Below, one piece after another: positions 27,878 through 46,291 of a stretch of DNA of 64,000 bases. The notes beneath the pieces were generated by a model. It was not told where the DNA came from and ran no database searches. It saw only the letters and a program-made list of their open reading frames with translations. A program made the position numbers and the translations under genes. The DNA is from Allobosea sp. WAO (lineage in GTDB: Bacteria > Pseudomonadota > Alphaproteobacteria > Rhizobiales > Beijerinckiaceae): contig NZ_JXTJ01000004.1 of the NCBI RefSeq assembly GCF_001509835.1, forward strand, positions 310,001 to 374,000, read 5' to 3'. Each line of letters opens with the position of its first letter. The first letter of the stretch is position 1.

Positions 27878-29215
27878 ATGTCGTGGTACAGCAAGGTTGT
27901 CTGGTCCGAAGGCCTGTTCCTGCGACCGCACCATCTGCAGCAGAACGACCGCTACCTCGAAAACCTACTGGAAAACCGCGTCCGGCACACCACGCCCTAC
28001 CCGTGGGGATTTTCGGTGCTGGAGATCGACCGCGACCTCGCCCAGCAAAGCCGCATCGGCCTGCGCCGCGCCGTCGGCGTGATGCCGGATGGCACACCCT
28101 TCGCCATGCCCGACAACTCGCCGCTGCCGCCGGCGATCGAAGTGCCGGACAATGCCGCCGGGCAGGTCGCCTGGCTCTCACTGCCGCTGGCCTCGGCCAA
28201 CACCCGCGAGGTCGAGGACAGCCTGAACGGCAGCGCCAGCCGCTTCTTCCCGTCGACGGAGATGCTGATCGACTCCACTGCCTCGCTGCGGATCGAGGAG
28301 GAGATCGACATCGCCCATCCGCGCATGGCGCTGGAGCTGCGCAAGACCGCCAAGCCCGGCTTTGTCGGCCTTGCCCTCGGCCGCATCCTCGAAGTGCGCG
28401 ACCGCGCCGTCCTGTTCGACGAAAAATTCGCCCCTCCGATTCTGATCTGCTCGGCGCATCCGGTCGTCGACGGCTGGATGGACCGGGTCATCGGCTGGAT
28501 CGACAACAAGCTCGAGGAACTCGCCCGCTACGCCGCCGACCCGACCGCCGGCGGCGGCCTGCAAAGCGCCGACTACTTCATCCTGCAGATGCTGAACCGG
28601 CACATCCCGGTGCTGAAGCATATGCGCGGCTCGCGCTTCGTGCACCCAGAACGGCTGTTCGTGACCTTGCTTGCCATCGCCGGCGAGCTCGCCACCTTCA
28701 CCACCGCCGAGCGCCGCGCCCGCGATTACCCGGCCTATGACCATGACGACCTCGAGGGCTGTTTCACGCCGGTCGTGCGCGACATCCAGGACTTTCTCTC
28801 GGCACAGCTAGGCCGCCGGGCCATCCGCCTCGAAATCGTCGAGCGCGCCCCGAACGCCTTCATGTCGACGATCCGCGACCGGACCCTGGTGCGCAATGCG
28901 ACGCTGATCCTCGAGGTCGCGGCGCGCCGGCCGCTCACCGAGATCCAGGCGCAGTTCCCGCATCTCTTCAAGGTCGGCCCCAACACCAAGATGAACGAGA
29001 TCGTCCATGCCCATCTGCCGGGCATCAATCTCGTCCATCTGCCGACGCCGCCGCCGCAGATCCGGGCGCTGACCGACCACGTCTATTTCTATCTCGACCG
29101 TACCTCGCCGCTCTGGCCGGAGTTCAGCACGGCGAGTTCGATCGGGATGCACTTCTCCGGTGACTGGCCCGACCTCGAAATGGAGCTCTGGGCCGTGCTC
29201 GAGGGCAGGAGATGA
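27878..29215 (+). CDS. tssK: T6SS baseplate protein TssK
   Basis: Trimeric adaptor that links the baseplate wedges to the membrane complex. The start MSWYSKVVWSEGLFLRPHHL is the hallmark of TssK. Later blocks include GCFTPVVRDIQDFLSAQL and FYLDRTSPLWPEFSTASSIG. It is 445 residues, the usual length. It overlaps tssL by 4 bases (ATGA), so the membrane complex genes are coupled to it. A strong promoter is not visible in the upstream gap. Confidence 0.96.
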   Translation: MSWYSKVVWSEGLFLRPHHLQQNDRYLENLLENRVRHTTPYPWGFSVLEIDRDLAQQSRIGLRRAVGVMPDGTPFAMPDNSPLPPAIEVPDNAAGQVAWLSLPLASANTREVEDSLNGSASRFFPSTEMLIDSTASLRIEEEIDIAHPRMALELRKTAKPGFVGLALGRILEVRDRAVLFDEKFAPPILICSAHPVVDGWMDRVIGWIDNKLEELARYAADPTAGGGLQSADYFILQMLNRHIPVLKHMRGSRFVHPERLFVTLLAIAGELATFTTAERRARDYPAYDHDDLEGCFTPVVRDIQDFLSAQLGRRAIRLEIVERAPNAFMSTIRDRTLVRNATLILEVAARRPLTEIQAQFPHLFKVGPNTKMNEIVHAHLPGINLVHLPTPPPQIRALTDHVYFYLDRTSPLWPEFSTASSIGMHFSGDWPDLEMELWAVLEGRR

Positions 29216-30738: not shown

Positions 30739-33700
30739 ATGAGCGTCGCGATCTGGCTCAGGATCGTCGCGATCGCGGTCGGCACGCTGGCCCTGGCCCT
30801 GCTGGTCTGGTTCGGCGGGCCCTTCGTCGCGATCGGCGAGATCAGGCCGTTCGAGCCGCTCTTCGTGCGCGTGCCGCTCGTCCTCCTACTTGCGGTCGGC
30901 GCGGCCGCCTGGATCGCCCTCGTCGTCATCCGCAGGCGCAAGGCGGTGGCTGCGTTGAGCGAGGCGCTGGCCAAGGAGGAGAACGCGACGGGCGATGGCG
31001 CGGCGCTGAGCTCGGCGATGCGCGATGCCCTAGCGACGCTGAAGCGGACCCGCGGCAAGGATGGCGGCGACTATGTCTACGACCTGCCCTGGTACGTGAT
31101 GATCGGCCCGCCCGGCGCCGGCAAGACGACGGCGCTGGTCAATTCCGGCCTGAAATTCCCACTGGCGCGCGGCGGCCAGGCCCCGGCCGCGGTCGCCGGC
31201 AATGGCGGCACGCGCTACTGCGACTGGTGGTTCGCCGAAGAGGCGGTGCTGATCGACACCGCCGGGCGCTACACCACCCAGGACACCGACACCAAGGCCG
31301 AGCGCGCGAGCTGGCTCGCCTTCCTCGACCTCTTGAAGCACAACCGCCCGCGCCAGCCGATCAACGGCGTCATGGTCGCGATCAGCGTCGAGGACCTGCT
31401 GACCTCGACGCCGGAACAGATCGCCGCCCATGCCGAGGCGATCCGCGCCCGCCTGCTCGAGCTGAACGAGCGCCTGAAGATCGATTTCCCGGTCTATGCC
31501 GTCTTCACCAAGGCCGACCTGATCGCCGGTTTCAACGAGTTCTTCGGCGGACTCTCCGAGCCGCAGCGGCGCATGGTCTGGGGCCATACCTTCCAGACCC
31601 TCGACAAGACCCGCAACATGATCGGCGACGTGCCGCCGGAGTTCGACGCGCTGATCGAGCGCCTGAACGAGCGCCTTTCCGACCGCCTGCAGGACGAGCC
31701 CAACCCGACCGCGCGCGCCCAGCTCTTCGGCCTGCCGAGCCAGATGGCGGCGCTCAAGCCGATCGTCGTCGACTTTCTCGGCCGGGTCTTCGAGCCGACG
31801 CGCTACCAACAGAGCGCGACGCTGCGTGGCTTCTACTTCACCTCCGGCACGCAGGAAGGCACGCCGATCGACCAGCTGATCGGCACGCTCTCGCGCAATT
31901 TCGGCAGCGAGCATGCCGGCGCCGGCAGCTTTTCGGGCCGCGGCAAGAGCTACTTCCTGACCGACCTGATCCAGAAGGTGATCATCGGCGAGTCCGGCTG
32001 GGTCTCGACGGATCTGCGCGCCATCAGGCGCTCGGCGCTGCTGCGTGCTGCCGGTTTCACCGCGGTGGCGCTGGTCGCGGTCACGCTCGCCGGGCTGTGG
32101 TGGACAAGCTATTCGCGCAACAGCGACCTGATCAACCAGACCAATTACGCTCTCGCCGATTACCGCTCGAGCGCCGCTCCGGTGCTGCAGGAGACGACGA
32201 TCTCGGAGCGGAACTTCAGCCGCGTTCTGCCGCTGCTGCACAAGCTGCGACATATGCCGGCCGGCTATGCCAGCAAGGACGAGCCGACGCCCGTCGCCGC
32301 AACCTTCGGCCTGAGCCAGCGCGAGCGCCTGCAATCGGCGACGCAGATCAGCTATCAGGAGGCGCTGGAGCGGATGCTGCGCTCGCGCATCATCTTCCGT
32401 CTCGAAGAGCAGCTCGAGGCCAACGCCAACAATCCCGGCTTCATCTACGAGGCGCTCAAGGTCTATCTGATGATCGGCGGCCGCGCGAAGCTGGACCGCG
32501 ATCTCGTCCTCGCCTGGATGCGGCTCGACTGGGCCGAGAACCTGTTCCCGGGCGCCGCCAACGCCAAGGGCCGCGAAGCGCTGGAAGAGCACCTTACCGC
32601 CTTGCTCGACCTCGACGAGGGCGCCGAGCCGCTGGTCAAGCTCAACCAGACCCTGATCGAGACCAGCCAGCAGACTCTGCGGCGGATGAGCATCGCCGAG
32701 CGCGCCTACGAGTTGCTGCGCACGCAGGGGCGCAACGCCAACCGCGACTGGGTCGCGGCGCAGCGCGGCGGCTCGGATGTCCGGCTCGTCTTCGAAGGCG
32801 TCTCGGGCGAGGATCTCGACTCGATCCGGGTGCCCTATTTCTACACCTATGACGGCTTCCAGAACGCCTTCGTCGACCGCCTCGGCGATATCGGCGAGCG
32901 CATCGAGAAGGAGCGCTGGGTCCTCGGCGAGAATGTCGACCAGGCGGCGATCACCTCGCAATATGCCAGTCTTTTTCAAGATCTTCTGAAACTTTATTCA
33001 CGCGACTTCACAGCATCCTGGCAGCGTGCCCTGCGCCGGCTGAAGCTGCGCCCGCTCAATGCTGACAAGCCCAAATACGTGGCGCTTTCGGCGATCGCCG
33101 CGCCGACCTCGCCCTTCAAGCAATTGCTGGAATCGGTCCGCGACGAGACGCAGCTGACCAAGGAGCGCGCCGCCCGCCGGCCGACCGCCGCGCAGGCGGC
33201 GGCGCAGGCCGGCAAGGAAGCCGCAGCCAAGACGCTGGAGGAGCGCGCCAATGCGGCGCTCGGCCGGCTCGGCACATCGCTGCCGCTGAGCGCGTCGGGC
33301 GTCGACCGGGTGCTTTCCGGCGGCAGCGAGGCGCTAGGTGCCAATATCGAGGCCGGCTTCAAGCAGTACCATGTCCTGGTCGATGGCGATCTCGGACGCC
33401 GCCCGGTCGATCAGGCGCTGCAGATCTTCGCCGAGATCAACCAGAACCTCGCAATAGCCGCGACCACGCCGGTCCAGTCGGCAGCGGCGAATGCGGCGAT
33501 GGTGCCGCTGATCTCCTCGCTGCGCGGCAATTCCTCGCGCTACCCCGCCCCGTTCGATGCGATGATCGTCTCGGCGGTCAACGATTTCGAGGGCGACGCT
33601 ACCAGCGCGACCATCTCGCTGCTGCGCCAGGCGCTGGGCGACGACGTCAGCCGCACCTGCACCAATCTCCTCGCCAATCGCTACCCCTTCACCAAGGCCA

Positions 33701-34386
33701 GCACCCGCGACATCGCCTTGTCGGACTTTGCCCAGCTCTTCGCCCCCGGTACCGGCGCGATGGACAAGTTCCTGAAGGAGCGGCTCGACCCCTATATCGA
33801 CAAGTCCGGCGCGCAATGGACCTGGCGCGCCGACAGCCGCGTCGCCCGCTCGCTCTCGCCGACGACATTGCGTGAGTTCCAGCGCGCCAGCGACATCCGG
33901 GAGGCCTTCTTCCCGACGGGCGGCAACCTGCCCTCGTTCCAGATGGTGGTGGTGCCGACCGCCCTTTCCTCCGACGCCTCCGGCGCCAAGCTCGAGATCA
34001 ACGGATTCACGGTGGCGAGCCAGCAGGGCGTCAACACCCCGACCCCGGTGATGTGGCCGGGCGCCGGGCTGGCAAAGACCTCGATCACCCTGACGCTCGG
34101 CGGCGGCGCTGGCAGCAACAATGCCGGCGGCATCTTCGGCGGCGGCTTTTTCTCGAACAGCCCGACACCGGCCGCGCCGAGCGAAGTCAAGCTGTTTGAG
34201 CGCGACGGCGTCTGGTCGTTCTTCCGGTTGCTCGATGCCGGCTCGGTGCTGCGCCAGGGCGATAATGTCGTCTTCACGCTCGCCGCCGGCGGCCGGCAGG
34301 TCGGCTACCAATTCGGCGTCGGCTCGCTGAAGAATCCGCTGGTGCTTCCCGCACTGCGCGAAATCCGCTGTCCAACGGGGATTTAA
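30739..34386 (+). CDS. tssM: T6SS membrane complex protein TssM (IcmF-type)
   Basis: Large inner-membrane protein of 1215 residues that spans to the periplasm. Membrane helices are at about 5-30, 44-65 and 433-455. The cytoplasmic NTPase domain between them has Walker A GPPGAGKT at residues 123-130 and DTAGRYTTQD near 173. A long periplasmic C-terminal part follows, with a helical region and the TssM C-terminal beta domain (GYQFGVGSLKNPLVLPALRE). The predicted Walker A lysine is present, so ATP binding may be retained. It starts 48 bases after tssL. TssJ, which binds the periplasmic part in other systems, was not found. Confidence 0.95.
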   Translation: MSVAIWLRIVAIAVGTLALALLVWFGGPFVAIGEIRPFEPLFVRVPLVLLLAVGAAAWIALVVIRRRKAVAALSEALAKEENATGDGAALSSAMRDALATLKRTRGKDGGDYVYDLPWYVMIGPPGAGKTTALVNSGLKFPLARGGQAPAAVAGNGGTRYCDWWFAEEAVLIDTAGRYTTQDTDTKAERASWLAFLDLLKHNRPRQPINGVMVAISVEDLLTSTPEQIAAHAEAIRARLLELNERLKIDFPVYAVFTKADLIAGFNEFFGGLSEPQRRMVWGHTFQTLDKTRNMIGDVPPEFDALIERLNERLSDRLQDEPNPTARAQLFGLPSQMAALKPIVVDFLGRVFEPTRYQQSATLRGFYFTSGTQEGTPIDQLIGTLSRNFGSEHAGAGSFSGRGKSYFLTDLIQKVIIGESGWVSTDLRAIRRSALLRAAGFTAVALVAVTLAGLWWTSYSRNSDLINQTNYALADYRSSAAPVLQETTISERNFSRVLPLLHKLRHMPAGYASKDEPTPVAATFGLSQRERLQSATQISYQEALERMLRSRIIFRLEEQLEANANNPGFIYEALKVYLMIGGRAKLDRDLVLAWMRLDWAENLFPGAANAKGREALEEHLTALLDLDEGAEPLVKLNQTLIETSQQTLRRMSIAERAYELLRTQGRNANRDWVAAQRGGSDVRLVFEGVSGEDLDSIRVPYFYTYDGFQNAFVDRLGDIGERIEKERWVLGENVDQAAITSQYASLFQDLLKLYSRDFTASWQRALRRLKLRPLNADKPKYVALSAIAAPTSPFKQLLESVRDETQLTKERAARRPTAAQAAAQAGKEAAAKTLEERANAALGRLGTSLPLSASGVDRVLSGGSEALGANIEAGFKQYHVLVDGDLGRRPVDQALQIFAEINQNLAIAATTPVQSAAANAAMVPLISSLRGNSSRYPAPFDAMIVSAVNDFEGDATSATISLLRQALGDDVSRTCTNLLANRYPFTKASTRDIALSDFAQLFAPGTGAMDKFLKERLDPYIDKSGAQWTWRADSRVARSLSPTTLREFQRASDIREAFFPTGGNLPSFQMVVVPTALSSDASGAKLEINGFTVASQQGVNTPTPVMWPGAGLAKTSITLTLGGGAGSNNAGGIFGGGFFSNSPTPAAPSEVKLFERDGVWSFFRLLDAGSVLRQGDNVVFTLAAGGRQVGYQFGVGSLKNPLVLPALREIRCPTGI

Positions 34387-34389
34387 GCT

Positions 34390-35094
34390 ATGGCGTGCGG
34401 GCTGTTCGGGAAGCTGCCGGGCAAGCGCGACTTCATCGCCCTGGGGGCGTCCACGGTCTTTCTCTCGGTCTACGAACCCTGGCTCCAGGGCGGGCTGACC
34501 GCAAGCCGGCTCGATCTCGGCGCCGGCTGGCAGGATGCTTTCCTCCACGCGCCGATCTGGCGCTTCTGGTTTGGCTCCGCCTATGGCGGCAACACCGTCG
34601 CGGGAGCGTTCATGCCCTCGGTCGACGGCATCGGCCGGTACTTCCCGCTCACGGTCTTCGCGGTCGCGGGTCCCGGCGCGGCGATCCCACCTCCCGAGAC
34701 CGACCCGCAGGATGCCTGGTTCGACCGTGCGGAAGATTTCCTGCTGAATGCGCTGGAGCCCGAAGCGAGCTTCGAGACCGTTGCCGAGGCGCTGGCCCAG
34801 CTGCCGGCTCCGAATGACGAGCTGAAGGCCGCCCCGCCGGCCGACATGGTCAGGCTGTCCGACGGCACCATCGTCAGTGCGCTCGAGCCGGCGAGCTTCC
34901 CTGCCCGGCTGGCGGCGCTGCGGGTCGAGGACCATACGCGTTCCTACGCCCATGCCTGCTATCTCTGGACCGTCGGTGGCGAAAATTTCGAGCCGCTCGC
35001 CTTGGTCGGCCAGGCTCTGCCGAGCCCCTATCTGTTCAGCGGCCTGCTGACCGGCCGCTTCGACGCCTTTCTCGGTGTGGGAGCAGCGTCATGA
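34390..35094 (+). CDS. tagF: T6SS regulator TagF
   Basis: TagF proteins repress T6SS after translation by blocking Fha or related steps. The 234-residue sequence starts CGLFGKLPGKRDFIALG and has the conserved block WFGSAYGGNTVAGAFMPSVD and GIGRYFPLTVFAVAG. It is free-standing, whereas in some alphaproteobacteria it is fused to PppA. It starts 3 bases after tssM and overlaps pppA by 4 bases, so expression is coupled to the phosphatase. Confidence 0.92.
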   Translation: MACGLFGKLPGKRDFIALGASTVFLSVYEPWLQGGLTASRLDLGAGWQDAFLHAPIWRFWFGSAYGGNTVAGAFMPSVDGIGRYFPLTVFAVAGPGAAIPPPETDPQDAWFDRAEDFLLNALEPEASFETVAEALAQLPAPNDELKAAPPADMVRLSDGTIVSALEPASFPARLAALRVEDHTRSYAHACYLWTVGGENFEPLALVGQALPSPYLFSGLLTGRFDAFLGVGAAS

Positions 35095-35885
35095 ACCATG
35101 CCGGCGCCACACTTGCCTTCGAGACCGGCGCGATCAGCCATCCCGGCCGCGTGCGCAGCCACAATGAGGACAATCTCGTGACGCGGCCCGAATTCGGGGT
35201 CTGGGCTGTGGCCGACGGCATGGGCGGGCACGAGAATGGCGCCATGGCGAGCGCCACCCTCGCCGCCGCGCTCGACGGCATCGGCCCCGCCCTCTCGGCC
35301 GCCGATCTCTTGGCGCGGCTGGAACAGAGCGTGCTCACCGCCAATGCCGAGCTGCGCCGCCGGGCCCAGGCGCGCGCCGGCGCGACAATGGGATCGACGC
35401 TTGCCGTCCTGCTGGCGCATGACAGCCACTTCGCCTGCGTCTGGTCGGGCGACAGCCGAATCTACCTCGTCCGCCACGGATACATCACCCAGATCTCGCG
35501 CGATCATACCGAGGCGCAGGATATGATGGATCGCGGCCTGCTCAGCGCCGAAGAGGCGCGGAACTGGCCACGCCGGCACGTGATCACCCGCGCCATCGGC
35601 GTCCACGATCTGCCCTCCCTCGAGATCGACCATGGCGAGCTCGAAGGCGGCGACACCTTCGTGCTCTGCTCCGACGGCCTGACCGGCCATGTCGAGGATG
35701 ACGAGATCCTGCGCGCCGCATCCGGCCCGGATGTCCAGGGCGCGTGCGATGCCCTGCTGGCGCTGACGCTGGAGCGCGGAGCGAGCGATAATGTCACCGT
35801 CGTCATTGTCCGCTATCATCACGATCGCCGCGTGCAGACCCGCTGGATGCCGAACATGCGTCAGCCGAAGAACGAGGCCTCATGA
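35091..35885 (+). CDS. pppA: PP2C-type phosphatase PppA of the T6SS
   Basis: Metal-dependent serine/threonine phosphatase opposing PpkA. The metal-binding motifs are RVRSHNEDNL near residue 22, VWAVADGMGGHENG near residue 40, GSTLAVLL and SDGLTGHVEDDE. GASDNVTVVIVRY is the C-terminal PP2C end. It is 264 residues with all canonical acidic residues. It overlaps tagF before and ppkA after by 4 bases each, the common tagF-pppA-ppkA order. It is expected to reset the threonine phosphorylation read by Fha. Confidence 0.94.
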   Translation: MNHAGATLAFETGAISHPGRVRSHNEDNLVTRPEFGVWAVADGMGGHENGAMASATLAAALDGIGPALSAADLLARLEQSVLTANAELRRRAQARAGATMGSTLAVLLAHDSHFACVWSGDSRIYLVRHGYITQISRDHTEAQDMMDRGLLSAEEARNWPRRHVITRAIGVHDLPSLEIDHGELEGGDTFVLCSDGLTGHVEDDEILRAASGPDVQGACDALLALTLERGASDNVTVVIVRYHHDRRVQTRWMPNMRQPKNEAS

Positions 35886-37930
35886 CCGATTCCGAGCGCA
35901 CGATCATCATGCCGCGCAACGGGCTTTCAGCCGGCACCAGGCTGAACGGCATCTATGAGATCGAGCGCCTGATCGCCGTCGGCGGCATGGGCGAGGTCTA
36001 CAAGGGCCGGGCCATCCAGACCGGCGATGCGGTGGCGATCAAGATGGTCCGCCCCGACATGGCGCAGGACGAGGCAGTCGTCACCCTGTTCCGCAAGGAA
36101 GCTGCGGCGCTGCACAACGTCTACAACGAGGCGATCGTCCGCTACTACGTCTTCACGGTCGACCCCGGCACGCAGGCGACCTACCTCGCCATGGAGTTCG
36201 TCGACGGACAGCCCCTGTCGGAGCGGCTCAAGCAGGGCCCGCTGTCGCCGGAGGAGGTCGATCTGCTGCGCCGGCGCATCGCCAGCGGTCTGCATGCGGC
36301 GCACATGCTCGGCATCACCCATCGCGACGTCTCGCCCGACAATATCATCCTGCCCGGCGGTCAGGTCGGGCGCGCCAAGATCATCGATTTCGGCATCGCC
36401 AAGTCCAGCGTGCTGGGCGAAAAGACCGTCATCGGCACGGGCTTCGCTGGCAAGTACAACTATGTCTCGCCGGAACAGCTCGGCCTGTTCGGCGGCGAGG
36501 TCACCGGAAAGTCCGACATCTACAGCCTCGGCCTCGTCCTCGCCGAGGCGCTCGGCGGCCGCCCGCTCGACATGGGCGGCACCCAGATGCAGATATTGGA
36601 GAAGCGGCGGCGCGTGCCCGACGTCGCCTCGCTGGACAAGAGCCTGCGCCCGCTGCTGGCCCGCATGCTCGCACCCGATCCGAAGGACCGCCCCGCCGAC
36701 ATGGCCGAGGTCGCGTCCTGGCAGCCGAAGGGCAAGCAGCCGACAACCGGCGGAGGCGCTCCCTGGAAGGCGCTTGCCGGCGTCGCTGCGCTCGTCCTGA
36801 TCGCTGGCGGCGGTTTCGTCGGCTGGCAATTGCTGGGGCAGGACGATAGCTCACCCATCTCCCAGGCCCCACCGGTGCTCGCCGGTCGCAGCGATGTCCC
36901 GCCCGCACCAAGCCTGCAGGGCGTCGCGCCCGAGCCGAATGCTCCAGACCCGCCCCAGGCCCGTCCGGACCGAACACCGCCGTCTTCGCCCCAGGCCGCG
37001 CCGACCCCACAGCCACCGGCCGGCAGCTTCGCCTCCGACCGCCAGGAGCCGCAGCAGCCGCCCTCGCAGCGCCGGCCAGCCTCGACCTCGCCTCCGGCGG
37101 CCACACCGGCCCCGTCGCCGGCGCCCGCGACGCCATCGCAGAATGCCGCCCGACCGGAGCCTCCGCCGGCCGCTCAGGTCCAGGCGCCACCGCCAACCCC
37201 GCTGCCGCCTGTCGCCGTTCCTCCCGTCACGGCGCCCCCTGCCGCCGCCCCGCCGCCAGCGGAGACCAAGACGGCAACCAACACCCTCGAGCCGCCCCCC
37301 GCCACCGCGACGGAGCGCATCGAGCGCTATATCGCCGGCTACGATGGCGGTGCCTGCTTCTTCCTCTGGCCGACTGCGATCGGCGACCGGCGTGCGACCA
37401 TCGAGGGCTTCGGCAGCTCGGCGCCGCCCTTCGTGGCCTTCGACACCGCCTTCAAGCGGAGCCAGGGCTTCGAAGCCCAGATCAGCCTGCGTTCGATCTC
37501 GACGGCGCAATGCCCGATGGCCGATTTCCTGCGCCAGCTCGGGCGCGGCATCGATCGCAGCCCGGTCATGCAGATCGGCGCCTTCACCATGAAGAGCGGA
37601 GACACGCTGAGCGGCACGGTCGAGAGCGACCCGAAGCAGAACCTCGCCGTACTGCTCGTCGGCGATGACGGGCTGGTCTACAACCTCGCCAACTTCACGC
37701 GGCGCGAGGGCGGCAAGGCGAGCTTCAATCTCCGGCTCCAATCGACGGCCGCGCCAGGAACCCCGGTCCGGCCGCAGGCGGTGATAGCGCTGGTCAGCCC
37801 CGCGCCTCTCCCGACCTTGTCCGGGCCGAACCCCGCTCCGGCAGGCGATATCTTCCCGGGCTTGCGGCAGGATGCTTCCCGCATCGGCGGCAAGCTCGGC
37901 GTCGGCATCAAGTATTTCCGGATCGAGTGA
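35882..37930 (+). CDS. ppkA: Membrane serine/threonine kinase PpkA of the T6SS
   Basis: Transmembrane Hanks-type kinase that starts the T6SS threonine-phosphorylation pathway. The cytoplasmic kinase domain (about residues 15-275) has IAVGGMGEVYKG, the ATP lysine in VAIKMV (K54), HRDVSPDN (catalytic D149) and DFGIAKS. The catalytic-loop lysine of HRDLKP is Ser here, as in some bacterial kinases. One membrane helix is at about 295-318. A Pro-rich linker (about 320-470) and a periplasmic domain (about 475-682, with ERIERYIAGYDGGACFFLWP) follow. The periplasmic domain may sense a signal; its fold is unknown to me. The stop lies 9 bases from the convergent gene 37940-38224. Confidence 0.9.
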   Translation: MTDSERTIIMPRNGLSAGTRLNGIYEIERLIAVGGMGEVYKGRAIQTGDAVAIKMVRPDMAQDEAVVTLFRKEAAALHNVYNEAIVRYYVFTVDPGTQATYLAMEFVDGQPLSERLKQGPLSPEEVDLLRRRIASGLHAAHMLGITHRDVSPDNIILPGGQVGRAKIIDFGIAKSSVLGEKTVIGTGFAGKYNYVSPEQLGLFGGEVTGKSDIYSLGLVLAEALGGRPLDMGGTQMQILEKRRRVPDVASLDKSLRPLLARMLAPDPKDRPADMAEVASWQPKGKQPTTGGGAPWKALAGVAALVLIAGGGFVGWQLLGQDDSSPISQAPPVLAGRSDVPPAPSLQGVAPEPNAPDPPQARPDRTPPSSPQAAPTPQPPAGSFASDRQEPQQPPSQRRPASTSPPAATPAPSPAPATPSQNAARPEPPPAAQVQAPPPTPLPPVAVPPVTAPPAAAPPPAETKTATNTLEPPPATATERIERYIAGYDGGACFFLWPTAIGDRRATIEGFGSSAPPFVAFDTAFKRSQGFEAQISLRSISTAQCPMADFLRQLGRGIDRSPVMQIGAFTMKSGDTLSGTVESDPKQNLAVLLVGDDGLVYNLANFTRREGGKASFNLRLQSTAAPGTPVRPQAVIALVSPAPLPTLSGPNPAPAGDIFPGLRQDASRIGGKLGVGIKYFRIE

Positions 37931-37939
37931 GGCCCGGCT

Positions 37940-38224
37940 TCAGTCCTCGCGGTAGAGGATGCCCCAATCGTCCTGCCAGAGCCCCTGCCCGTCCTCGACG
38001 ACGATCGGCGCCTTGATCTCGTTGGCGAGCCTGACCGCCGAGCGGAAAGCCTCGACCGGCTCCAGCTCGTCGCTGAGGAAGTCGTTGACGAGATGGCCGC
38101 CCGCGAGTTCCGCCGGGCAGGCGATCCTGCCGAAGGTCTTGCCGTCGCGCTGGCCGAGGCTCAGCGTGATCGCATCCGGTTGCTGCTCGTCGACCTGTTC
38201 GAACCGGTTCTTCGCCGCCGCCAT
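37940..38224 (-). CDS. Small acidic hypothetical protein
   Basis: A 94-residue protein with no signal peptide and a clearly acidic composition. Key parts are FEQVDEQQPDAITLSLG, IACPAELAGGHLVNDFLSDE and IVVEDGQGLWQDDWGILYRE. The start ATG at 38224 is preceded by GGGAGCGG; in-frame starts at 38260 and 38284 are weaker. It begins 63 bases after the transglycosylase-zinc ribbon gene on the same strand, so the two are likely co-transcribed. I do not recognise the family. It could be an immunity, chaperone or regulatory partner, but nothing proves this. Confidence 0.6.
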   Translation of the reverse strand: MAAAKNRFEQVDEQQPDAITLSLGQRDGKTFGRIACPAELAGGHLVNDFLSDELEPVEAFRSAVRLANEIKAPIVVEDGQGLWQDDWGILYRED

Positions 38225-38287
38225 AACCCGCTCCCGGATTGCCGCAACGGCAGCGATCATGAGCCAGGAAGCCCGGGCCGGCAAATC

Positions 38288-39922
38288 CTAACGTGAGAGT
38301 TGCCGCGCTGGGGCTACGGGCGCTGGCCCGCCGCGCACCACCTTGTAGCGGTCGAGCCGCACCCTGATCATCTCGTTGAACTTCTTGTGCACCTCCGAGA
38401 CCGAGAGCGTCTTGGTCTCGCCGCCGGCCTCGGCATAGAAGATCGGCCGGTTGGCCTGGGCCGGACGCGGCAGCAACTCGGCCGCGCTGGCGCCGGGCGT
38501 CTCCTCCATCGTTTCGATGAAGGTCTGCGCCGCATCCGGGCCGAGGAAGTGGATCAGGTAGATCTCGCCGCCGGTGAGATGGCGGCCCATCGCCTTCTCG
38601 AGCCGGAGCGTGTCGCGCTTCAGCATCTCCGCTGCGAGCAGGGCCGAAAGATAGGGCTCGCGCCTGAGATCGAGGATGCGCTGGCGCTCATTGGCGTCGG
38701 CGACGACGAACTGCCGGCCATTGCGCGTGATCAGCGCTGCCTCGGCCACCATGCCGTGCTTGCGCCCGAACTCGAAGACGACGCCGAGCCAGGTCTGCTC
38801 GATGAACTGGTAGAGCCCGGTCGCCGAGGAGGTCTTCGCCTGGACCGTGGTGGCGAAGGAGGATTCCTTGTCGGCGACCGCCATCAGCAGCGTCGGGTCG
38901 GCCCCGACGATCCGCCCCGCGCGCACGATGATGTCTACGAGATGCCGGCGGATGCGGATGGGCCCAAAGGTCAGGATCTGGTCGGGATCGCCGCTGGTCG
39001 TCATCGGCGCGCGCGGCAATTGCTGGCCCGGCGTCGCGGTCGGAACCGGCGCGGCGCCGGGCTTCGCCGGCAGTTTCGGCGGCACCAGCAGGATGTTCGA
39101 AGGCGGCAGCACCGGCAGCGGCAGGGCCGGCGCCTGCGGCGATGCCCCGGAGGCTTCGTCCGCCGACTGTTCGGTCAGCGCCGCCAGCGAAGGATCGTTG
39201 CTGAGCGCGAACTGCGTCGCCTGCCGCGCCGCTTCAAGATCGCCCTCGACCGAGGACAGGATCAGCGAGGGCCGCATCGGCGCCTGCAGCGAAGGCGCGT
39301 CCACCGTCTCCACCGGCGTGAAATCGGGGTCGGGAACCGGCGCGGGAGCAGGTGTCAACGTCGCCACCGCCACCCCTGCCATCACCGCCACGACGACGGC
39401 ACCGGCGCCCGACAGCGCGAGCAGTCGGCCGCGGCCTCCGCCGTCCGCCGCCAAGGCGCCCGCGGAGCCCCCTGCGCCCGAGCCCACGGCGCCCGTCACC
39501 GGGACCGGAGTAGCGTCGCCCGTGACCGCCTTGCGGGCGGCCGTGAACCAGCCGCGCCCATCCTCGGCGGCGGCTTCGAGCTCTCCGACCATCCGGCGGG
39601 CTTGCTCGATCGAGATGCCCGCCTCGCGCTCCAGCGTCGACGCTGCTGCCTTGGGCCCCTGCTCGGCCAGCACCCTGACCGCGAAGAACCAGAGCTGCAG
39701 CGAGGTCCGGCGGTTCTGCAGCGGCGTCCCGGCGCAAGGCGAGACCAGGAAGTTGCAGTGCCCGCAGGCATAGGCGCGCAGCTTGATCCGCGGCACGAAG
39801 GCCGAAACCCGGCCGCAGGCCGGGCAGGCGATGCTGATGCCGCCCCGGCTCGCCTGCATCATCGCCTCGAGGCAGGCATCTTCCCGGAACGCGGCCTGGA
39901 ACTGCTTGAAGCGCTGGCTCAT
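38288..39922 (-). CDS. IS1595-type zinc ribbon fused to a membrane-anchored lytic transglycosylase-like domain
   Basis: A 544-residue protein with an unusual layout. Residues 1-115 look like the N-terminus of IS1595/ISXO2 transposases: a FREDACLEAMM helix, zinc ribbon cysteines at 33/36 (CPACG) and 53/56 (CGHC), then AGTPLQNRRTSLQLWFFAVR and a helix-turn-helix-like part to AGISIEQARRMVGELEA. A Gly/Ala linker and a membrane helix (about 167-190) follow. After a Pro-rich stretch, residues about 325-500 resemble SLT/lysozyme enzymes: VADKESSFAT (possible catalytic Glu near 352), TSSATGLYQFIEQTWLGVVF and GEIYLIHFLGPDAA. No DDE domain remains, so it is not a transposase. Peptidoglycan cleavage in the periplasm and zinc or nucleic-acid binding in the cytoplasm are inferred. 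Confidence 0.75.
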   Translation of the reverse strand: MSQRFKQFQAAFREDACLEAMMQASRGGISIACPACGRVSAFVPRIKLRAYACGHCNFLVSPCAGTPLQNRRTSLQLWFFAVRVLAEQGPKAAASTLEREAGISIEQARRMVGELEAAAEDGRGWFTAARKAVTGDATPVPVTGAVGSGAGGSAGALAADGGGRGRLLALSGAGAVVVAVMAGVAVATLTPAPAPVPDPDFTPVETVDAPSLQAPMRPSLILSSVEGDLEAARQATQFALSNDPSLAALTEQSADEASGASPQAPALPLPVLPPSNILLVPPKLPAKPGAAPVPTATPGQQLPRAPMTTSGDPDQILTFGPIRIRRHLVDIIVRAGRIVGADPTLLMAVADKESSFATTVQAKTSSATGLYQFIEQTWLGVVFEFGRKHGMVAEAALITRNGRQFVVADANERQRILDLRREPYLSALLAAEMLKRDTLRLEKAMGRHLTGGEIYLIHFLGPDAAQTFIETMEETPGASAAELLPRPAQANRPIFYAEAGGETKTLSVSEVHKKFNEMIRVRLDRYKVVRGGPAPVAPARQLSR

Positions 39923-40031: not shown

Positions 40032-41579
40032 TCACCCCGCCAGCAGGCCGAGCCGGGCGACGTCGCGCAGATGCATTTCGACCTCCTCCGCCGTCGCGTG
40101 CTGCGGCAGGCGCGTGCCGTCGCCTCCCGAGGCATGCGCCTCGGCCAGGAAGGCGTTCATCTCGGCGAGCAGCATCGGCGCCGTCCGCGTGCCGTCGAGC
40201 AGGCTGACGAACTTGCGCACCACGACGCCGTCAAGCGCCACGGCGCGGTGGCGCAGATCGGTGACCTCGTTGCCTGAAAGCGCCTGCCGCCGTGCCAGCA
40301 GGCTCGCCACCGGGCGCTCGCTGACGGCCGTGGTGAGCCGGTGCGGCTCCAGGGCGATCTCCAGCAGGCCGGCCCGGTAGATCGCCGTCAGCGCCTCGTC
40401 GAGTCGGCCGGTCTCGCGCGCGATATCGGGACCGAGGCTGTCCCTGGCCTCGCCCAAGGCGATCGCCACGAGCTCGGCATGGCCGATGCTGCCGGGCCAG
40501 GCCCGGCCGAGCGCCCGCAAGGCCGCCTTGGCGCTTTCGAGATCGACGGCAAGCCGGACATCGCTGCCGAACAGGAACCCGCCGACGCCGGGCCTGTCGT
40601 CTTGCTCCTCGGCCTCGCGAACATTCGCGGCGAGATGATAGGGCGCGAGCGCAAAGCGCGCGAAGCCGCGATGGAGCACGACATCCGAGCGGCAGAGCAG
40701 CGTCTGGCGGAAGCAGCGCCCGATCAGCAGGTCGAGCGACTGTTCCTGGCGCAGCGGCTCGTCGACCGGGATCGCGTTCAGGATCTGCTGGGCCGGCCCC
40801 TGCGCTCCGCCGAAGTTATTGGGGAACGAGGTCTCGGCCAGAAATTGCAGCCCATGCGGCGCTGCCGCGTCCAGCACCTCGTGCAGCGCGAACGCCCGCG
40901 CGCCGGGATTGAGATCGTCATGGTAGAGGACATTGTCCGGAATCTCGTCGATCTGCTGCAGGCGCTCGCGCAGGGCCGCGCCGTAGAACGAGCCGGGATC
41001 GGTCGCCTCGGCGAAGCGCCTGATCGCGGCCCGCGCGACCCTGACCCGCTCCAGCGGCTCATCGATGTCGCGCGTCTCGTAGAGCATGATGTCGCGGGCG
41101 AGATCGCGCAGCCGGCAGCCCGGCAGGGCATTGTAGCTGACATAGGCGATGCCTTGGGGCCGCAGCAATTGCCCGAACAGCGCAAGGATGCGCTCGCGCA
41201 CGAAAGGCGGCACCCAGGAATAGACACCGTGGACCAGGATGTAGTCGAAGCTGCCGAGCCCGGCATCCGCCGCCATGATGTCGAGGTGGTGGAAGGTGAT
41301 ATTGTCGAGACCGAGTTCGCCGGCCTCGGCCTTGGCCCGGGCGATCGCGCTGGCGCTGAGGTCGATGCCGACGAAGCTGGCGCCGGGCGATTGCAGCGCC
41401 ATCGGGATCAGGTTGCCGCCGCTGCCGCAGCCGAGCTCCAGTACCCGCATCGTCGCCGTCGGCGCCGGCTCCATGCCGTGGAAATGCGCGATCGTCGCCA
41501 GATGGCCGGGATGGGTCTGGGAGAAGGCATGGCCGGGATAGGCGACGGCATCGTAGGGGTTGGTGCTCGTCTCGCTCAT
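40032..41579 (-). CDS. Class I SAM methyltransferase with regulatory domain (protein lysine methyltransferase-like)
   Basis: A 515-residue cytosolic methyltransferase. Motif I is VLELGCGSGGNL (residues 47-58), followed by FVGIDLSASAIARA and FDYILVHGVYSWVPPFVRER. This last block and the following middle domain resemble the methyltransferase-plus-regulatory-domain proteins related to rickettsial lysine methyltransferases of outer-membrane proteins. The C-terminal part, rich in Arg and Leu, probably binds substrate. The chosen start MSETSTNPYDAVAYPG (41579) is preferred over the frame start at 41675. It lies upstream of the zinc-ribbon transglycosylase gene and downstream of the OmpA-like gene, all on the minus strand. 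The substrate is unknown. Confidence 0.75.
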   Translation of the reverse strand: MSETSTNPYDAVAYPGHAFSQTHPGHLATIAHFHGMEPAPTATMRVLELGCGSGGNLIPMALQSPGASFVGIDLSASAIARAKAEAGELGLDNITFHHLDIMAADAGLGSFDYILVHGVYSWVPPFVRERILALFGQLLRPQGIAYVSYNALPGCRLRDLARDIMLYETRDIDEPLERVRVARAAIRRFAEATDPGSFYGAALRERLQQIDEIPDNVLYHDDLNPGARAFALHEVLDAAAPHGLQFLAETSFPNNFGGAQGPAQQILNAIPVDEPLRQEQSLDLLIGRCFRQTLLCRSDVVLHRGFARFALAPYHLAANVREAEEQDDRPGVGGFLFGSDVRLAVDLESAKAALRALGRAWPGSIGHAELVAIALGEARDSLGPDIARETGRLDEALTAIYRAGLLEIALEPHRLTTAVSERPVASLLARRQALSGNEVTDLRHRAVALDGVVVRKFVSLLDGTRTAPMLLAEMNAFLAEAHASGGDGTRLPQHATAEEVEMHLRDVARLGLLAG

Positions 41580-41622
41580 GCCCGCGGCCCGTCCGTCACG
41601 CCAACCTCCTGCGTCGTGCCGC

Positions 41623-42864
41623 TCAGCAGCCGATGACCTTGAACTCGACCCGTCGGTCGAGCGCGTCGCTGGCATCGTCCTTTCCGGTCCCGATCAGGTT
41701 CTCGTTGAAGCCCTTGCCGGTCGCGATCATGCGGTTGCGGCTGTCGGGCGCCCCGGCCTGGAGCAGTTCCATCACATATTGCGCGCGCAGCACCGAAAGT
41801 CGCTCGTTGAGGTGCTGCGTGCCGGTGCGCGAGGTGTGCCCGACGATCTCGATGCAGGCGCCCTTCTGCCGGGCCCGTGTCGCGATCTGGCTCAGCCACA
41901 TCGGATAGGGCTCCGTGATCTGCGGGTTGGCGATGAACTGCGTCGTTCCAGGCTGGAACAGCAGCTTGACCATCAGCTGGTTGCTGGTGAGGCCACTGTC
42001 GACGAGATCGCCGAAAGCATCGACCGCATCCTCGCCACGGCCTAGCTTGCTGGCGGCGAGATAGGCACCGACCCGGACGCGATGCTGGTCGCCGCCGGGC
42101 AGGCTTCGCGCCGTGCGATAGAAGGCCAGCGCCTCGCGATAACGCCGCGCCTCATATTCGAGGATGCCGTCATTGATCAGCGCCGCGGCGTTCAGCCGCT
42201 CGAGATAGACGGGGTCGATCGGCTCACCGAGCCTGGTCCCCTGGCAGACCTTGATATAGGCCTCGGTCGCCGGGTCCTTCGTCCACATCGGCGTATCGCG
42301 ATAATAAGTCGTCGGCGTCACGTCGACGCCCTCCGGCCGTGCCCGAGCGACGCCTTTCGAGACGACACGCTTCGATTTCATATCCGCGAGCGTCAGGCAG
42401 ATCCGGTAGGCGTCGCGCGCTCCCTTCGCGTCGCCGGCGTTGTTGACCGCGGTGAAGGTACCGACCAGCACGACCGGCTCGCGTGCCAGGCTCTCGGTTG
42501 TGAAGGGCTGCAGCTGGAAGCGTGGATATGATTTCGAGACGATCTCCGCGAGCGTCTGCTGCATCGAGCGGGTCGAGGCCGACTGCGCACCCGAGACGCC
42601 GTCGATCAGCGGGTCGATTACCAGCGCGATCCGGTCGCCGGCGAGATCGGCCTTGGAGAACAGGTCGGCGGCGGCGCGCTGCAGCGCTTCCGGGAACGGG
42701 ATCGGCGTCGGCGCGGGCGCTGCGGCCGGAGGCGCCCCGGAGGGCGCCGGCGCCTGAGCGGACACCGCCGCGGGCACGACGAGCATGGCAAGGAGGACGC
42801 AACAGGTCAGGGAGGATCGACGCGCACGGCCAGTTGCCGAAGACATGGTCCGAGACGCGTCCAT
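41623..42864 (-). CDS. Secreted protein with C-terminal OmpA domain
   Basis: A 413-residue protein with a signal peptide (about residues 1-37, ending PAAVSAQAPAP) and a Pro/Ala-rich linker. A central domain with FTTESLAREPVVLVGTFTAV follows, then a TPR-like helical part (YEARRYREALAFYRTARSL). The C-terminal OmpA domain (about 290-413) has GACIEIVGHTSRTGTQHLNE and ALDRRVEFKVIGC, expected to bind peptidoglycan. The ATG at 42864 is supported by GGGAG 8 bases before; an earlier start at 42879 is in frame. It lies 43 bases upstream of the methyltransferase and 34 bases downstream of the caspase gene, so the three may form one operon. A terminal Cys is odd and could be unpaired. Confidence 0.8.
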   Translation of the reverse strand: MDASRTMSSATGRARRSSLTCCVLLAMLVVPAAVSAQAPAPSGAPPAAAPAPTPIPFPEALQRAAADLFSKADLAGDRIALVIDPLIDGVSGAQSASTRSMQQTLAEIVSKSYPRFQLQPFTTESLAREPVVLVGTFTAVNNAGDAKGARDAYRICLTLADMKSKRVVSKGVARARPEGVDVTPTTYYRDTPMWTKDPATEAYIKVCQGTRLGEPIDPVYLERLNAAALINDGILEYEARRYREALAFYRTARSLPGGDQHRVRVGAYLAASKLGRGEDAVDAFGDLVDSGLTSNQLMVKLLFQPGTTQFIANPQITEPYPMWLSQIATRARQKGACIEIVGHTSRTGTQHLNERLSVLRAQYVMELLQAGAPDSRNRMIATGKGFNENLIGTGKDDASDALDRRVEFKVIGC

Positions 42865-42898: not shown

Positions 42899-44416
42899 TC
42901 AGCGGCAACCCTGCAATGAACTCCCGCCGCCGTCGCCGAGTTGGGCCCGCATCAGCTCCTCGTTGCAGTCGCGTGCGCTGCCCGGCCGTCGGTTCCTGCT
43001 GCCTCGCGCCGGCACAGAAGCGTCGCTACCGCCAAGCGTGTCGTTGGACCGGCGGTCGACGACCGTGCGCTCCTGCGGCTGCGGCTCCTGACGGGGCAGG
43101 CGGGCGCTCGGCAGGAGAGGCTTCTCCGGCACCGGCAATTCCTTGACGGCGCCGCCGGAGCTGATCCGCGCCGCGACTGCCTTCTCGCGCTCCTGACGCT
43201 CCTGGGAGAGCTTGACCTTCTCGGCTTCGAGCACCGCGAGTTCCTGCTCGCGCCTGGCGAGTTCGCGGGCGAGGCGCTCGCGCTCGCCGGCCTCGGAAGG
43301 CTTCGTAGCGGGAGCGATCGCAACCGGCGCCGGCGCATCGGCAGGCAGTGGCGCCGGGCGCCCGGCACCGATCTTTCCAGAATCGCGATCGGCGAGGTCG
43401 GTCGCGGCCTGCTGCCGGCTCTTCTCCGCCTGCTGGAGCCGCTCCAGCAGAGCCCTTTCCCGCGCAGCGAATTCGTTTTCTAGCTTCTCGCGCTCGCGCG
43501 CCGAAACGCTGCGGCGCTCGAGCAGGTCGAGCCTTGTCCTGGCGTCGACGGCGAAGAAGCTGGCGGGGAAGCGCTGGATGAAGGCCTTGATCTCCGCCGC
43601 GTCGTCGCTGCTGCGCAGCCTCTTCCAGATGTCCGCGTCCGTTTCCTCGCGGTTCAGGTAGAAGTCGCCGAGCAGCGACAGGGTCAGCTCCGGCGTCTGC
43701 TTGCCGCCGGTCGCGTCGTAGACCACCTTCTGCACCCGGCGGAACATCGTCGCGATCTCGAGCCCGGGCTGCTTCATCTCCTGCACCAGCGCCGCCGTGA
43801 ACGGGCTGTTGCGGCCCGAGCCATCGGCCGCGACATCGTTGGCCTGCGTCGCATAGGCGGTGACCATGCCCTGCGCCCGCGCGATCGGCGCAAGACCGGT
43901 GCCGACCGAGAAGCTGCGCGTCGCCTGGTTCTTCGAGAGCTGCGCGACGAAGGGGTTGTTGCGGCAGGCGTCGAGCACCATGATCTTGACGCCCTTGGCG
44001 AAGCCCAGCGCCGTGATCACTTCGCTGAGCTTCAGCGTCTCGTACTGGACCGAGACCTCGTCATCGATCCTGGCCTCGACCGGCACCAGGAAGTTCTCGC
44101 CGTTGAACTGGAAGCCGTGGCCGGCGTAGTAGAACATCACAGCATCGGCGTCCCGGGCCAGCCTGGCGAAGCGAAAGAGCGCGGTATCCATGTCGCGCTT
44201 GTCGAGATCGACACCGTCGACCACTTCGAAACCGACTTTGCGCAGGGCGTCCGCTGTATCGCGGGCGTCATTGACGGTGTTCGGCAGGGCGGGCGCATTC
44301 TTGTAGGCGGAATTGCCGATGACCAGCGCGACGCGCCGGTCCTGCGCCAGCGCCGGCAGGGCCAGCAACTGCGAAAGAAGAGCCACCAGTGCACAGAGCC
44401 TGAGCGCAGCGTTCAT
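42899..44416 (-). CDS. Secreted caspase-like peptidase (C14) with coiled-coil tail
   Basis: A 505-residue protein with a signal peptide (about 1-24, ending LALPALAQ) and a caspase p20-like domain up to about 240. The domain start is RRVALVIGNSAYKNAPAL. The catalytic His lies in MFYYAGHGFQ and the catalytic Cys in MVLDACRNNPFV, so both active-site residues are present. A motif SSDDAAEIKAFIQRFPASFF follows. The tail is Ala/Glu/Arg rich, with two heptad-like coiled coils (about residues 310-450) and a Pro/Arg-rich end. The ATG at 44416 has a GGGA site; the frame begins earlier at 44452. It is divergent from the DUF4399 genes. The substrate is unknown. Confidence 0.85.
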   Translation of the reverse strand: MNAALRLCALVALLSQLLALPALAQDRRVALVIGNSAYKNAPALPNTVNDARDTADALRKVGFEVVDGVDLDKRDMDTALFRFARLARDADAVMFYYAGHGFQFNGENFLVPVEARIDDEVSVQYETLKLSEVITALGFAKGVKIMVLDACRNNPFVAQLSKNQATRSFSVGTGLAPIARAQGMVTAYATQANDVAADGSGRNSPFTAALVQEMKQPGLEIATMFRRVQKVVYDATGGKQTPELTLSLLGDFYLNREETDADIWKRLRSSDDAAEIKAFIQRFPASFFAVDARTRLDLLERRSVSAREREKLENEFAARERALLERLQQAEKSRQQAATDLADRDSGKIGAGRPAPLPADAPAPVAIAPATKPSEAGERERLARELARREQELAVLEAEKVKLSQERQEREKAVAARISSGGAVKELPVPEKPLLPSARLPRQEPQPQERTVVDRRSNDTLGGSDASVPARGSRNRRPGSARDCNEELMRAQLGDGGGSSLQGCR

Positions 44417-44558
44417 GGCACGCATTCCCTGCGTCAGCCTAAAGAAAGGCAAGGTGAAAATCCAGACCTATCCATTATTGCCACGGGCGGTTTGCTTGCT
44501 CCTGCGATAGCGGCCTGATAGTTTCGAGGTCCGTGCCGCGCCCTCAGGAAGAGCGCCG
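44417..44558. promoter_or_regulatory. Divergent gap, caspase operon versus DUF4399 operon
   Basis: 142 bases between two divergent operons. AT-rich stretches near 44440-44500 could be promoters, but no consensus pair is trusted. The arrangement suggests that the two operons are co-regulated. Confidence 0.4.
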
Positions 44559-45812
44559 ATGCAAGGTATCCGGCTGAAGCTCATTGTCGGCATCTCGGCG
44601 GCTTTCGCCTTGCTGGCGGGAGACGCCGGCGCACAGGAGCGCCCGCGGCAGCGTAATCCGGCCCCCGCGAACGCCAAGGTTTCCTTCGTCGATCTCGGCG
44701 ATAACGCCAAGGTTCCCGGCAAACTGCTGGTGCGTTTCGCCATCACCGGCATGGAGATCGCGCCAGCCGGCACGCAACGCCGCAATGCCGGCCACCATCA
44801 TCTGCTGATCGACACCAATCTGCCCCCGCTCGGCCAGCCGATCCCGAGCGACTTCAACCATCTGCATTTCGGCGGCGGTCAGACCGAAGCCGAGATCCTG
44901 CTCTCGCCCGGCCGCCACACCTTGCAGCTGCTCTTCGCCGATCACGATCACGTGCCGCACGACCCGCCGGTGATGTCCGAGAAGATTACCGTCGAGGTCG
45001 AAGCCATGCCGGAGGAGAAACCGCGCACCGCCGCCGCACCGAACGCCCAGGTCTTCTTCGTTGGGCTTCAGGATGGCGCGACGATCCCCGCCCGCTCGGT
45101 CATTCGCTTCGGCACCGCGAACATCGCGATCGTCCCGGCCGGCACGAAGCAGGACAATGCCGGCCACCACCATCTCCTGGTCGATGCCGAACTGCCGCCG
45201 CTCGACCGCGAGATACCCAGCGATTTCAACCATCTGCACTTCGGGCGCGGCCAGACCGAAACCGAGCTGACGCTGCCGCCCGGCGAGCACACGCTGCAAC
45301 TGCTCTTCGCCGACCACGAGCATGTCCCGCACGATCCGCCGGTGATGTCGCAGAAGATCAAGGTGCGCGTCGAGGCGGCCTCGGCAACGCAGGCGCCAGC
45401 TGTGCCTCAGGCTCCAGTCGGCAAGCCGGGGCGCACGCCCGCGCCCAACGACGCCGCCGTCTATTTCATCTATCCGCGCAATGGCACGACGATCTATGCG
45501 ACCTCGACGATCCGCTTCGGCCTACGCAACATGGGCGTGGCTCCGGCCGGGATCATCAAGCCGAATACCGGCCATCACCATCTCCTGATCGACGTACCGA
45601 CGCCGCCGCTCGACGTCGCCATTCCCAGCGACCTCAACCATCTGCATTTCGGCAACGGTCAGACCGAGCGCAAGATCACCCTTCCTCCCGGCAGGCACAC
45701 CCTGCAACTCATCCTCGGCGACGATCAGCACGTGCCGCACGATCCGCCGGTGCTGTCCGAACGGATCGAGGTCTTCGTCGGCAATCCCCGAAAGCGGAGC
45801 AAGCGTCGATGA
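44559..45812 (+). CDS. Secreted protein with three DUF4399-type domains
   Basis: A 417-residue exported protein with a signal peptide of about 25 residues (ending LAGDAGAQ). It holds three tandem copies of one domain (about residues 40-150, 158-275 and 295-410). Each copy has the motif GHHHLLID or GHHHLLVD, then an IPSDFNHLHFG or IPSDLNHLHFG block, a GQTE turn, and an HVPHDPPV tail motif. The many His residues suggest metal or ligand binding, but this is inference. The single-domain protein 45809-46291 follows with a 4-base overlap. The DUF4399 label is from memory. Confidence 0.82.
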   Translation: MQGIRLKLIVGISAAFALLAGDAGAQERPRQRNPAPANAKVSFVDLGDNAKVPGKLLVRFAITGMEIAPAGTQRRNAGHHHLLIDTNLPPLGQPIPSDFNHLHFGGGQTEAEILLSPGRHTLQLLFADHDHVPHDPPVMSEKITVEVEAMPEEKPRTAAAPNAQVFFVGLQDGATIPARSVIRFGTANIAIVPAGTKQDNAGHHHLLVDAELPPLDREIPSDFNHLHFGRGQTETELTLPPGEHTLQLLFADHEHVPHDPPVMSQKIKVRVEAASATQAPAVPQAPVGKPGRTPAPNDAAVYFIYPRNGTTIYATSTIRFGLRNMGVAPAGIIKPNTGHHHLLIDVPTPPLDVAIPSDLNHLHFGNGQTERKITLPPGRHTLQLILGDDQHVPHDPPVLSERIEVFVGNPRKRSKRR

Positions 45813-46291
45813 GCAGGCCAGTGCGCATCGCCGAGCCACCTGCTTCCTTCCGCATGCGGCGGCTGACTGCCCTCGCCTGCCTCGCCCTGCTCTGCCCGCT
45901 GCTTGCGGCCACGGCCCCGTCCGCGCAGACGGCCCAGCGCCAGCCATCGCCGCGCGGCGCCCTGCTCTACTTCCATTACCCGCTCGACGGCCTGCGCGTG
46001 CCAGAGCGCTTCACCGTGCGGATGGGGCTGAAAGAGATGGGCGTCGCGCCGGCCGGCATCGACAAGCCGCTGACCGGCCACCATCACCTGCTGATCGATG
46101 TCGAGCCGCCGCCGCCGGACCAGCCGATTCCAGCCGACTACAATCACATCCATCTCGGCAACGGCCAGACCGAGGTCGTCGTCACCCTGCCGAAAGGCAC
46201 TCACACGCTGCAATTGCTGCTCGGCGACCACCTGCACACACCGCATCAGCCGCCGGTTATGTCTCAGAAGATCACAGTCTATGTCCGCTGA
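45809..46291 (+). CDS. Secreted single DUF4399-type domain protein
   Basis: A 160-residue protein with a probable signal peptide or anchor (LTALACLALLCPLLAATAPS) and one copy of the same His-rich domain: TGHHHLLID, IPADYNHIHLG, GQTEVVV and HTPHQPPVMS. It is closest by eye to the third copy of the upstream gene, suggesting duplication. It overlaps the upstream gene by 4 bases, so they are translationally coupled. It precedes the pseudo-caspase gene by 49 bases. Confidence 0.82.
   Translation: MSRPVRIAEPPASFRMRRLTALACLALLCPLLAATAPSAQTAQRQPSPRGALLYFHYPLDGLRVPERFTVRMGLKEMGVAPAGIDKPLTGHHHLLIDVEPPPPDQPIPADYNHIHLGNGQTEVVVTLPKGTHTLQLLLGDHLHTPHQPPVMSQKITVYVR

Follow-up and report, generated by a model that had tools for sequence, protein, structure and literature searches.

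The stretch of DNA from Allobosea sp. WAO analyzed here (64,000 nucleotides; contig NZ_JXTJ01000004.1, positions 310,001 to 374,000; hereafter the window) carries a gene which codes for a three-part protein: an N-terminal module (N-module) related to IS1595 transposases, a single predicted transmembrane helix, and a lytic transglycosylase (LT) domain. The gene lies in a cluster for a type VI secretion system (T6SS). It codes for 544 aa from an ATG start and is present in the genome as a single unbroken frame (Table 1). Proteins in which both halves are joined are called fusion proteins below. The closest named relative among the matches listed, which are the best 80 of 168, is encoded by a Bosea metagenome-assembled genome (L032) and shows 89% sequence identity.

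Table 1. The fusion gene, its parts, and neighboring genes in the window (AF2, AlphaFold2; pLDDT, predicted local distance difference test; dN/dS, ratio of nonsynonymous to synonymous substitution rates; HTH, helix-turn-helix)
Feature	Coordinates	Strand	Basis
Transposase N-module, transmembrane helix and lytic transglycosylase (whole gene)	38288..39922	-	ORF and translation
IS1595-derived N-module, residues 1-125	39548..39922	-	pairwise alignment, hhalign and tree; AF2 mean pLDDT 93.0
Zinc ribbon, residues 30-66 (C33, C36, C53, C56; AGT turn)	39725..39835	-	alignment; zinc binding predicted
HTH-like helices, residues 75-121, several recognition residues lost	39560..39700	-	alignment and AF2
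Single transmembrane helix, residues 166-187	39362..39427	-	hydropathy; low-confidence AF2 helix
Conserved juxtamembrane segment (predicted periplasmic), residues 209-243, AF2 helix 222-242	39194..39298	-	AF2 and dN/dS
gp144-type lytic transglycosylase domain, residues about 326-531	38330..38947	-	Pfam SLT and likeness to solved gp144
Catalytic Glu353 (aligned with gp144 Glu115)	38864..38866	-	alignment
ppkA-type Ser/Thr kinase, convergent T6SS neighbor	35882..37930	+	Pfam
pppA-type PP2C phosphatase	35091..35885	+	Pfam
tagF	34390..35094	+	Pfam
tssM (IcmF)	30739..34386	+	Pfam
tssK	27878..29215	+	Pfam
114-aa protein between ppkA and the fusion gene, no fixed partner	37940..38284	-	no Pfam match at E 0.01
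Methyltransferase with regulatory and PKMT winged-helix domains, upstream neighbor	40032..41675	-	Pfam

A preliminary description of the protein had assigned its N-terminus to the IS1595/ISXO2 transposases. When the full protein was compared to Pfam, the N-terminus gave only sub-threshold matches (SprT zinc ribbon, E = 0.0097; IS1595 zinc ribbon, E = 0.027), and with the N-terminal 125 aa alone the SprT ribbon was marginally ahead of the IS1595 ribbon (0.0014 vs. 0.0022). Because the result for a single sequence is weak and ambiguous, the N-module was tested across the family. The IS1595 ribbon (PF12760) proved to be the commonest and the best match (34 of 36 members, best E = 1.3e-7; single scans, E up to 1); in the same members, matches were obtained to the Cas12f1-like TNB (27 of 36, best 6.8e-5), C1_2 (21, 4.1e-4), and SprT (20, 3.6e-4) ribbons. 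Comparison by hhalign with 17 IS1595 transposases (profile A2, drawn from 30 transposase loci found among 190 genomes of the class) gave a probability of 99.5 and E = 2e-22 over 120 columns, which cover zinc ribbon and HTH together. The assignment, left unsettled by the single sequence, is thus borne out by the family scan and by hhalign, and the captured part also includes the HTH. On these alignments, the likeness of the N-module to IS1595 transposases is far beyond chance.

In pairwise comparisons, the window protein shows 39% identity to transposase L134 over 107 aa, 39% to L118 over 114 aa, and 42% to L210 over 123 aa, and two divergent fusion proteins are up to 50% identical to L203 and L210. 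In a tree of 90 rows, the 45 fusion N-modules (including the identical pair L056/L181) form one clade (support 100/97) beside the transposases L203, L205, and L210 (100/94 for the joint clade); the remaining IS1595 rows (15 close, 27 distant) lie apart. Eight transposases had been added to this tree, picked because they match profile A1; the first N-module tree contained 37 of 58 IS1595 loci, the remainder having failed the motif filter. Both trees are built on few columns and drawn at the midpoint; when the distant transposases are taken as outgroup, the fusion proteins fall inside IS1595. The N-module apparently goes back to a single capture from an IS1595 transposase.

A DDE catalytic core was not found: the N-module matches of 36 full-length members all stop at or before position 134 of the transposase profile, while the first DE motif is at about 155, and the one further domain reported in this test is chance-like (i-E 6.5). 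Its place is taken by the membrane helix and the LT domain, as the preliminary description had stated. The fusion proteins share with IS1595 transposases (nearest found: L210, L203, and L205) the succession of zinc ribbon, GT turn, W-F helix, and HTH; unlike the transposases, they are devoid of the DDE core, have an eroded recognition helix, and are joined to a transmembrane helix and an LT domain. In the order-wide search with profile A1, the only matching frames with about 546 aa are those of the fusion proteins from genomes G000 and G174; all others span 69-401 aa. An IS1595 N-module was also encountered near the end of a frame at L209 (2605-4821, reverse strand), where the frame stops about 50 residues further on and the 6 kb fetched contain neither a DDE nor an LT part; this locus may represent a decayed transposase or a stand-alone module.

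The window protein contains the four cysteines of the predicted zinc site, the AGTPLQ turn, and the LQLWFFAVR helix, as noted before, and C17 is an additional cysteine. All 45 fusion rows have cysteine at the five positions C17, C33, C36, C53, and C56; P62, L75, W78, and A108 are likewise invariant. The recognition helix has fared differently. Ten close transposases, chosen by their place in the first N-module tree, keep Y105 (10), K106 (9), T107 (9), W109 (9), and R116 (10), residues which, judging from the HTH pattern, presumably contact DNA in IS1595. The commonest letters in the 45 fusion proteins are A (16), L (11), T (18), R (21), and A (10, tied with T), respectively. L203, L205, and L210, which were found later and are outside this residue table, all retain the YK of the recognition helix. 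The mean net charge of residues 90-118 is +0.71 in the fusion proteins, +3.2 in the 10 close transposases, and +3.9 in 27 distant ones. As judged from the alignment, the zinc-ribbon/HTH fold is kept but several recognition residues and most of the HTH charge are lost. The earlier view of a domesticated transposase module is in accord with the single origin.

The C-terminal domain matches Pfam SLT above the gathering score (24.7 vs. 21.3 bits, residues 336-379), and its closest solved protein is gp144 from phage phiKZ (PDB 3bkh). Glu353, Tyr455, and His458 are kept in all fusion rows (35/35 and a further 10/10). The roles of the catalytic Glu and of the partner Tyr/His have been described for gp144 (PMC5406664). 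A secondary site proposed for gp144 differs, with Glu178 and Tyr147 corresponding to Arg436 and Phe385 in the fusion protein, which, also unlike gp144, is predicted to be membrane-anchored and has a different N-terminus. The domain probably cuts the glycan strands of peptidoglycan. The same genome encodes a second gp144-type LT (L002; G000:C1:151892-152410) without predicted transmembrane helix or zinc module, and forms like it are widespread in the order.

The two halves are connected by one predicted hydrophobic helix (residues 168-186 by hydropathy; 166-187 according to AlphaFold2 at low confidence, block pLDDT 39-53). Lys and Arg are commoner on its N-terminal side in 26 of 36 members and on the C-terminal side in 3, with equal numbers in 7. 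This bias leads to the prediction, made already in the preliminary description, that the N-module is cytoplasmic and the LT domain periplasmic. In the AlphaFold2 model based on 35 sequences, residues 1-130 are confident (block pLDDT 89-95), helix 222-242 has low to middling confidence, and the LT domain has mixed confidence; the N-module modeled alone (residues 1-135) reached a mean pLDDT of 93.0 and a predicted template modeling score (pTM) of 0.86. Median dN/dS values, computed from 10 close rows (Bosea or relatives; L034 is labeled Methylobacterium), are 0.27 for the N-module and 0.07 for the LT domain. The lowest of six segments is the juxtamembrane segment 209-243 (0.054), which is thus under tighter constraint than the N-module; it is a possible contact site for TssM.

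T6SS genes identified by Pfam in the window are tssG, hcp, tssA (ImpA_N), vgrG, DUF6931, the gene for an FHA protein, tssK, tssL, tssM, tagF, and the PP2C phosphatase and kinase genes. Further genes, which we take from their position to be tssH (a ClpB-type AAA protein), tssF, tssE, tssC, and tssB, complete the list. The T6SS neighborhood had been pointed out before, and the link is strong in relatives. T6SS genes occur in the flanks of 35 of 35 fusion loci (L001, L032-L065), with the ppkA-type kinase as the sole T6SS gene at L001, L040, L041, L050, L054, and L056, where the flank fetched on that side is below the usual 8 kb. Homologues without the zinc module were found at 46 loci (L066-L111; labeled Methylobacterium, Methylorubrum, Methylobacteriaceae or, once, Microvirga), and with the window T6SS proteins as queries, T6SS genes were detected at none of these in up to 8 kb of flank. 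Gene order varies: ppkA and the fusion gene are convergent in Bosea and Chelatococcus, the fusion gene immediately follows ppkA, in the same orientation, in L186, L187, L191, and L200 and lies downstream of it in L188 and L190, and the next matched gene is that for the FHA protein in L035. Genome G174 has a fusion gene beside ppkA plus a zinc-less homologue elsewhere.

The domain order is not confined to the window protein: 22 of 248 family genomes have a fusion, with both halves seen in all 22 (L001, L172-L184, L186-L192, L200). TssK was found in 55 of the 248, with at least 77% identity in 19 and at most 75% in 36. The fusion is present in all 19 of the former and in none of the latter, of which 26 lack a profile A1 match at E <= 0.001; the matches in the remaining 10 were all read, and none is an LT (seven IS1595 transposases and three short pieces). 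Three genomes have a fusion but no TssK match (G617, G718, and G632); tagF, pppA, and ppkA are beside the fusion gene in G617, and ppkA is near the contig end in G718.

These data bear on the alternative that the protein is a general peptidoglycan-remodeling enzyme which hitch-hikes beside the T6SS, its N-module tuning it in an unrelated way. The linkage contrast (35/35 fusion vs. 0/46 zinc-less loci), the co-occurrence with one TssK group (19/19 vs. 0/36), and the persistence of T6SS linkage despite changed gene order argue against it. We give this alternative only a small chance, even though no T6SS genes were detected in flanks of up to 8 kb around zinc-less homologues and the fusion gene is unlinked to the T6SS in G514 and without demonstrated linkage in G632. 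A tree of the LT domain has the zinc-less group nested within the fusion proteins, with L184 (from G514) in its basal polytomy, and the fusion label requires two changes on it. This tree comprises 34 fusion rows (11 were thinned out), 23 of the 46 zinc-less loci (those with even numbers), six other rows from the family, and an outgroup of 18 of 23 loci, five having failed the motif filter. The simplest reading is one fusion event and a single later loss of the N-module, in a lineage already separated from the T6SS; because the root branch is long, this sequence of one gain and one loss rests on a distant outgroup.

We consider it probable that the protein is a T6SS-dedicated inner-membrane transglycosylase, docked in the cytoplasm by a former transposase module. 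By cutting glycan strands, the periplasmic gp144-type domain would open a passage through the wall for the TssM/TssL membrane complex or the tail tube; such wall opening is suggested by protein family and gene context. The N-module, predicted to be cytoplasmic, most likely docks on a cytoplasmic part of the T6SS, and candidate partners would be the baseplate, the cytoplasmic domains of TssL/TssM, or the PpkA-FHA switch. Docking of this kind would confine cutting to assembly sites. More tentatively, the module may have been converted in one step to a cytoplasmic address tag which recognizes the T6SS rather than DNA and links assembly in the cytoplasm (PpkA-FHA phosphorylation or the baseplate) to wall cutting across the membrane; enzymes that part from the T6SS would lose the tag.

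Several observations weigh against the proposal of a docked, T6SS-dedicated enzyme. Sequence change is faster in the N-module than in the LT domain, while slower change is expected of a tight docking surface. The fusion gene of G514 (L184) is about 0.9 Mb away from the T6SS of that genome (L185), and the 9 kb fetched from G632 (L189) gave no match to a T6SS gene; T6SS linkage is therefore not absolute. Distant T6SS clusters (L193-L199) are without a fusion gene in the stretches fetched, so it is not a core T6SS part. Two looser pairwise alignments pass residue 130 (window protein with L208 to residue 199, 28%; L059 with L207 to 212, 31%), and a sharp end of similarity is therefore seen only for the closest transposases. 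T107 is still the commonest letter at its position in the fusion proteins. R99 (41/45) and R110 (34/45), both present in 10/10 close transposases, are mostly retained, and the zinc-ribbon charge is unchanged (+3.5 in fusion proteins, +3.2 in close and +4.2 in distant transposases), so that some nucleic-acid binding is possible. A membrane regulator similar to ToxR might be considered, with a cytoplasmic zinc-ribbon/HTH that binds T6SS promoters and a periplasmic LT domain whose sensing or editing of peptidoglycan sets the signal. We see a modest chance for this, given that Y105, K106, W109, R116, and most of the HTH charge are lost and that the LT catalytic residues are invariant, which is unexpected of a pure sensor.

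To our knowledge, few T6SS-dedicated wall enzymes are known. MltE from E. coli is reportedly a housekeeping transglycosylase, being so named in the title of a study. As far as the available parts of these reports show, T6SSs can need wall enzymes of their own (TagX, PMC5061870) or borrowed ones (MltE, PMC5841429), and a transposase-type module is not mentioned there for either. TagX from the Acinetobacter T6SS has been called the first T6SS-dedicated wall enzyme; it is a membrane-anchored peptidoglycan hydrolase with a periplasmic C-terminal enzyme domain (PMC5061870), an arrangement also predicted for the fusion protein, and is likewise encoded with the T6SS. TagX differs in being an L,D-endopeptidase (VanY-type) with two predicted transmembrane domains, whereas the fusion protein is a transglycosylase with one such helix and a transposase module. 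MltE is described as a lipoprotein (PMC5841429) and, unlike the fusion protein, has no cytoplasmic module. A T6SS-dedicated transglycosylase of the kind proposed here bears on how a secretion machine limits the opening of its own wall to assembly sites. The fusion family would provide a targeting module that is part of the enzyme itself, lies on the cytoplasmic side, and can be separated, with natural fused and unfused relatives for comparison; it is also a bacterial case in which a transposase N-module alone, devoid of the catalytic core, has been reused in another protein.

Among the immediate neighbors, the gene for the 114-aa protein was matched in 32 of the 54 loci to which tblastn was applied but is unmatched at several fusion loci, and in G514 (L185) it adjoins ppkA while the fusion gene sits elsewhere. 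This matters for the idea that the protein is a T6SS effector, that is, a peptidoglycan-cutting toxin encoded next to its immunity gene. By this neighbor, a linked immunity gene is not indicated, and the transmembrane helix is internal, following an N-terminal part of 165 aa; we regard an effector as very improbable. The upstream methyltransferase gene was matched near the fusion gene in most Bosea loci and in L063 but was unmatched at the Chelatococcus loci L059 and L064. Farther away are genes for two proteins with a caspase-C14 domain (42899-44452, reverse strand, and 46341-48119, forward strand), the second also with an FGE-sulfatase domain. They flank a pair of DUF4399 genes (44559-45812 and 45809-46291), and many Bosea loci have portions of this block next to the T6SS.
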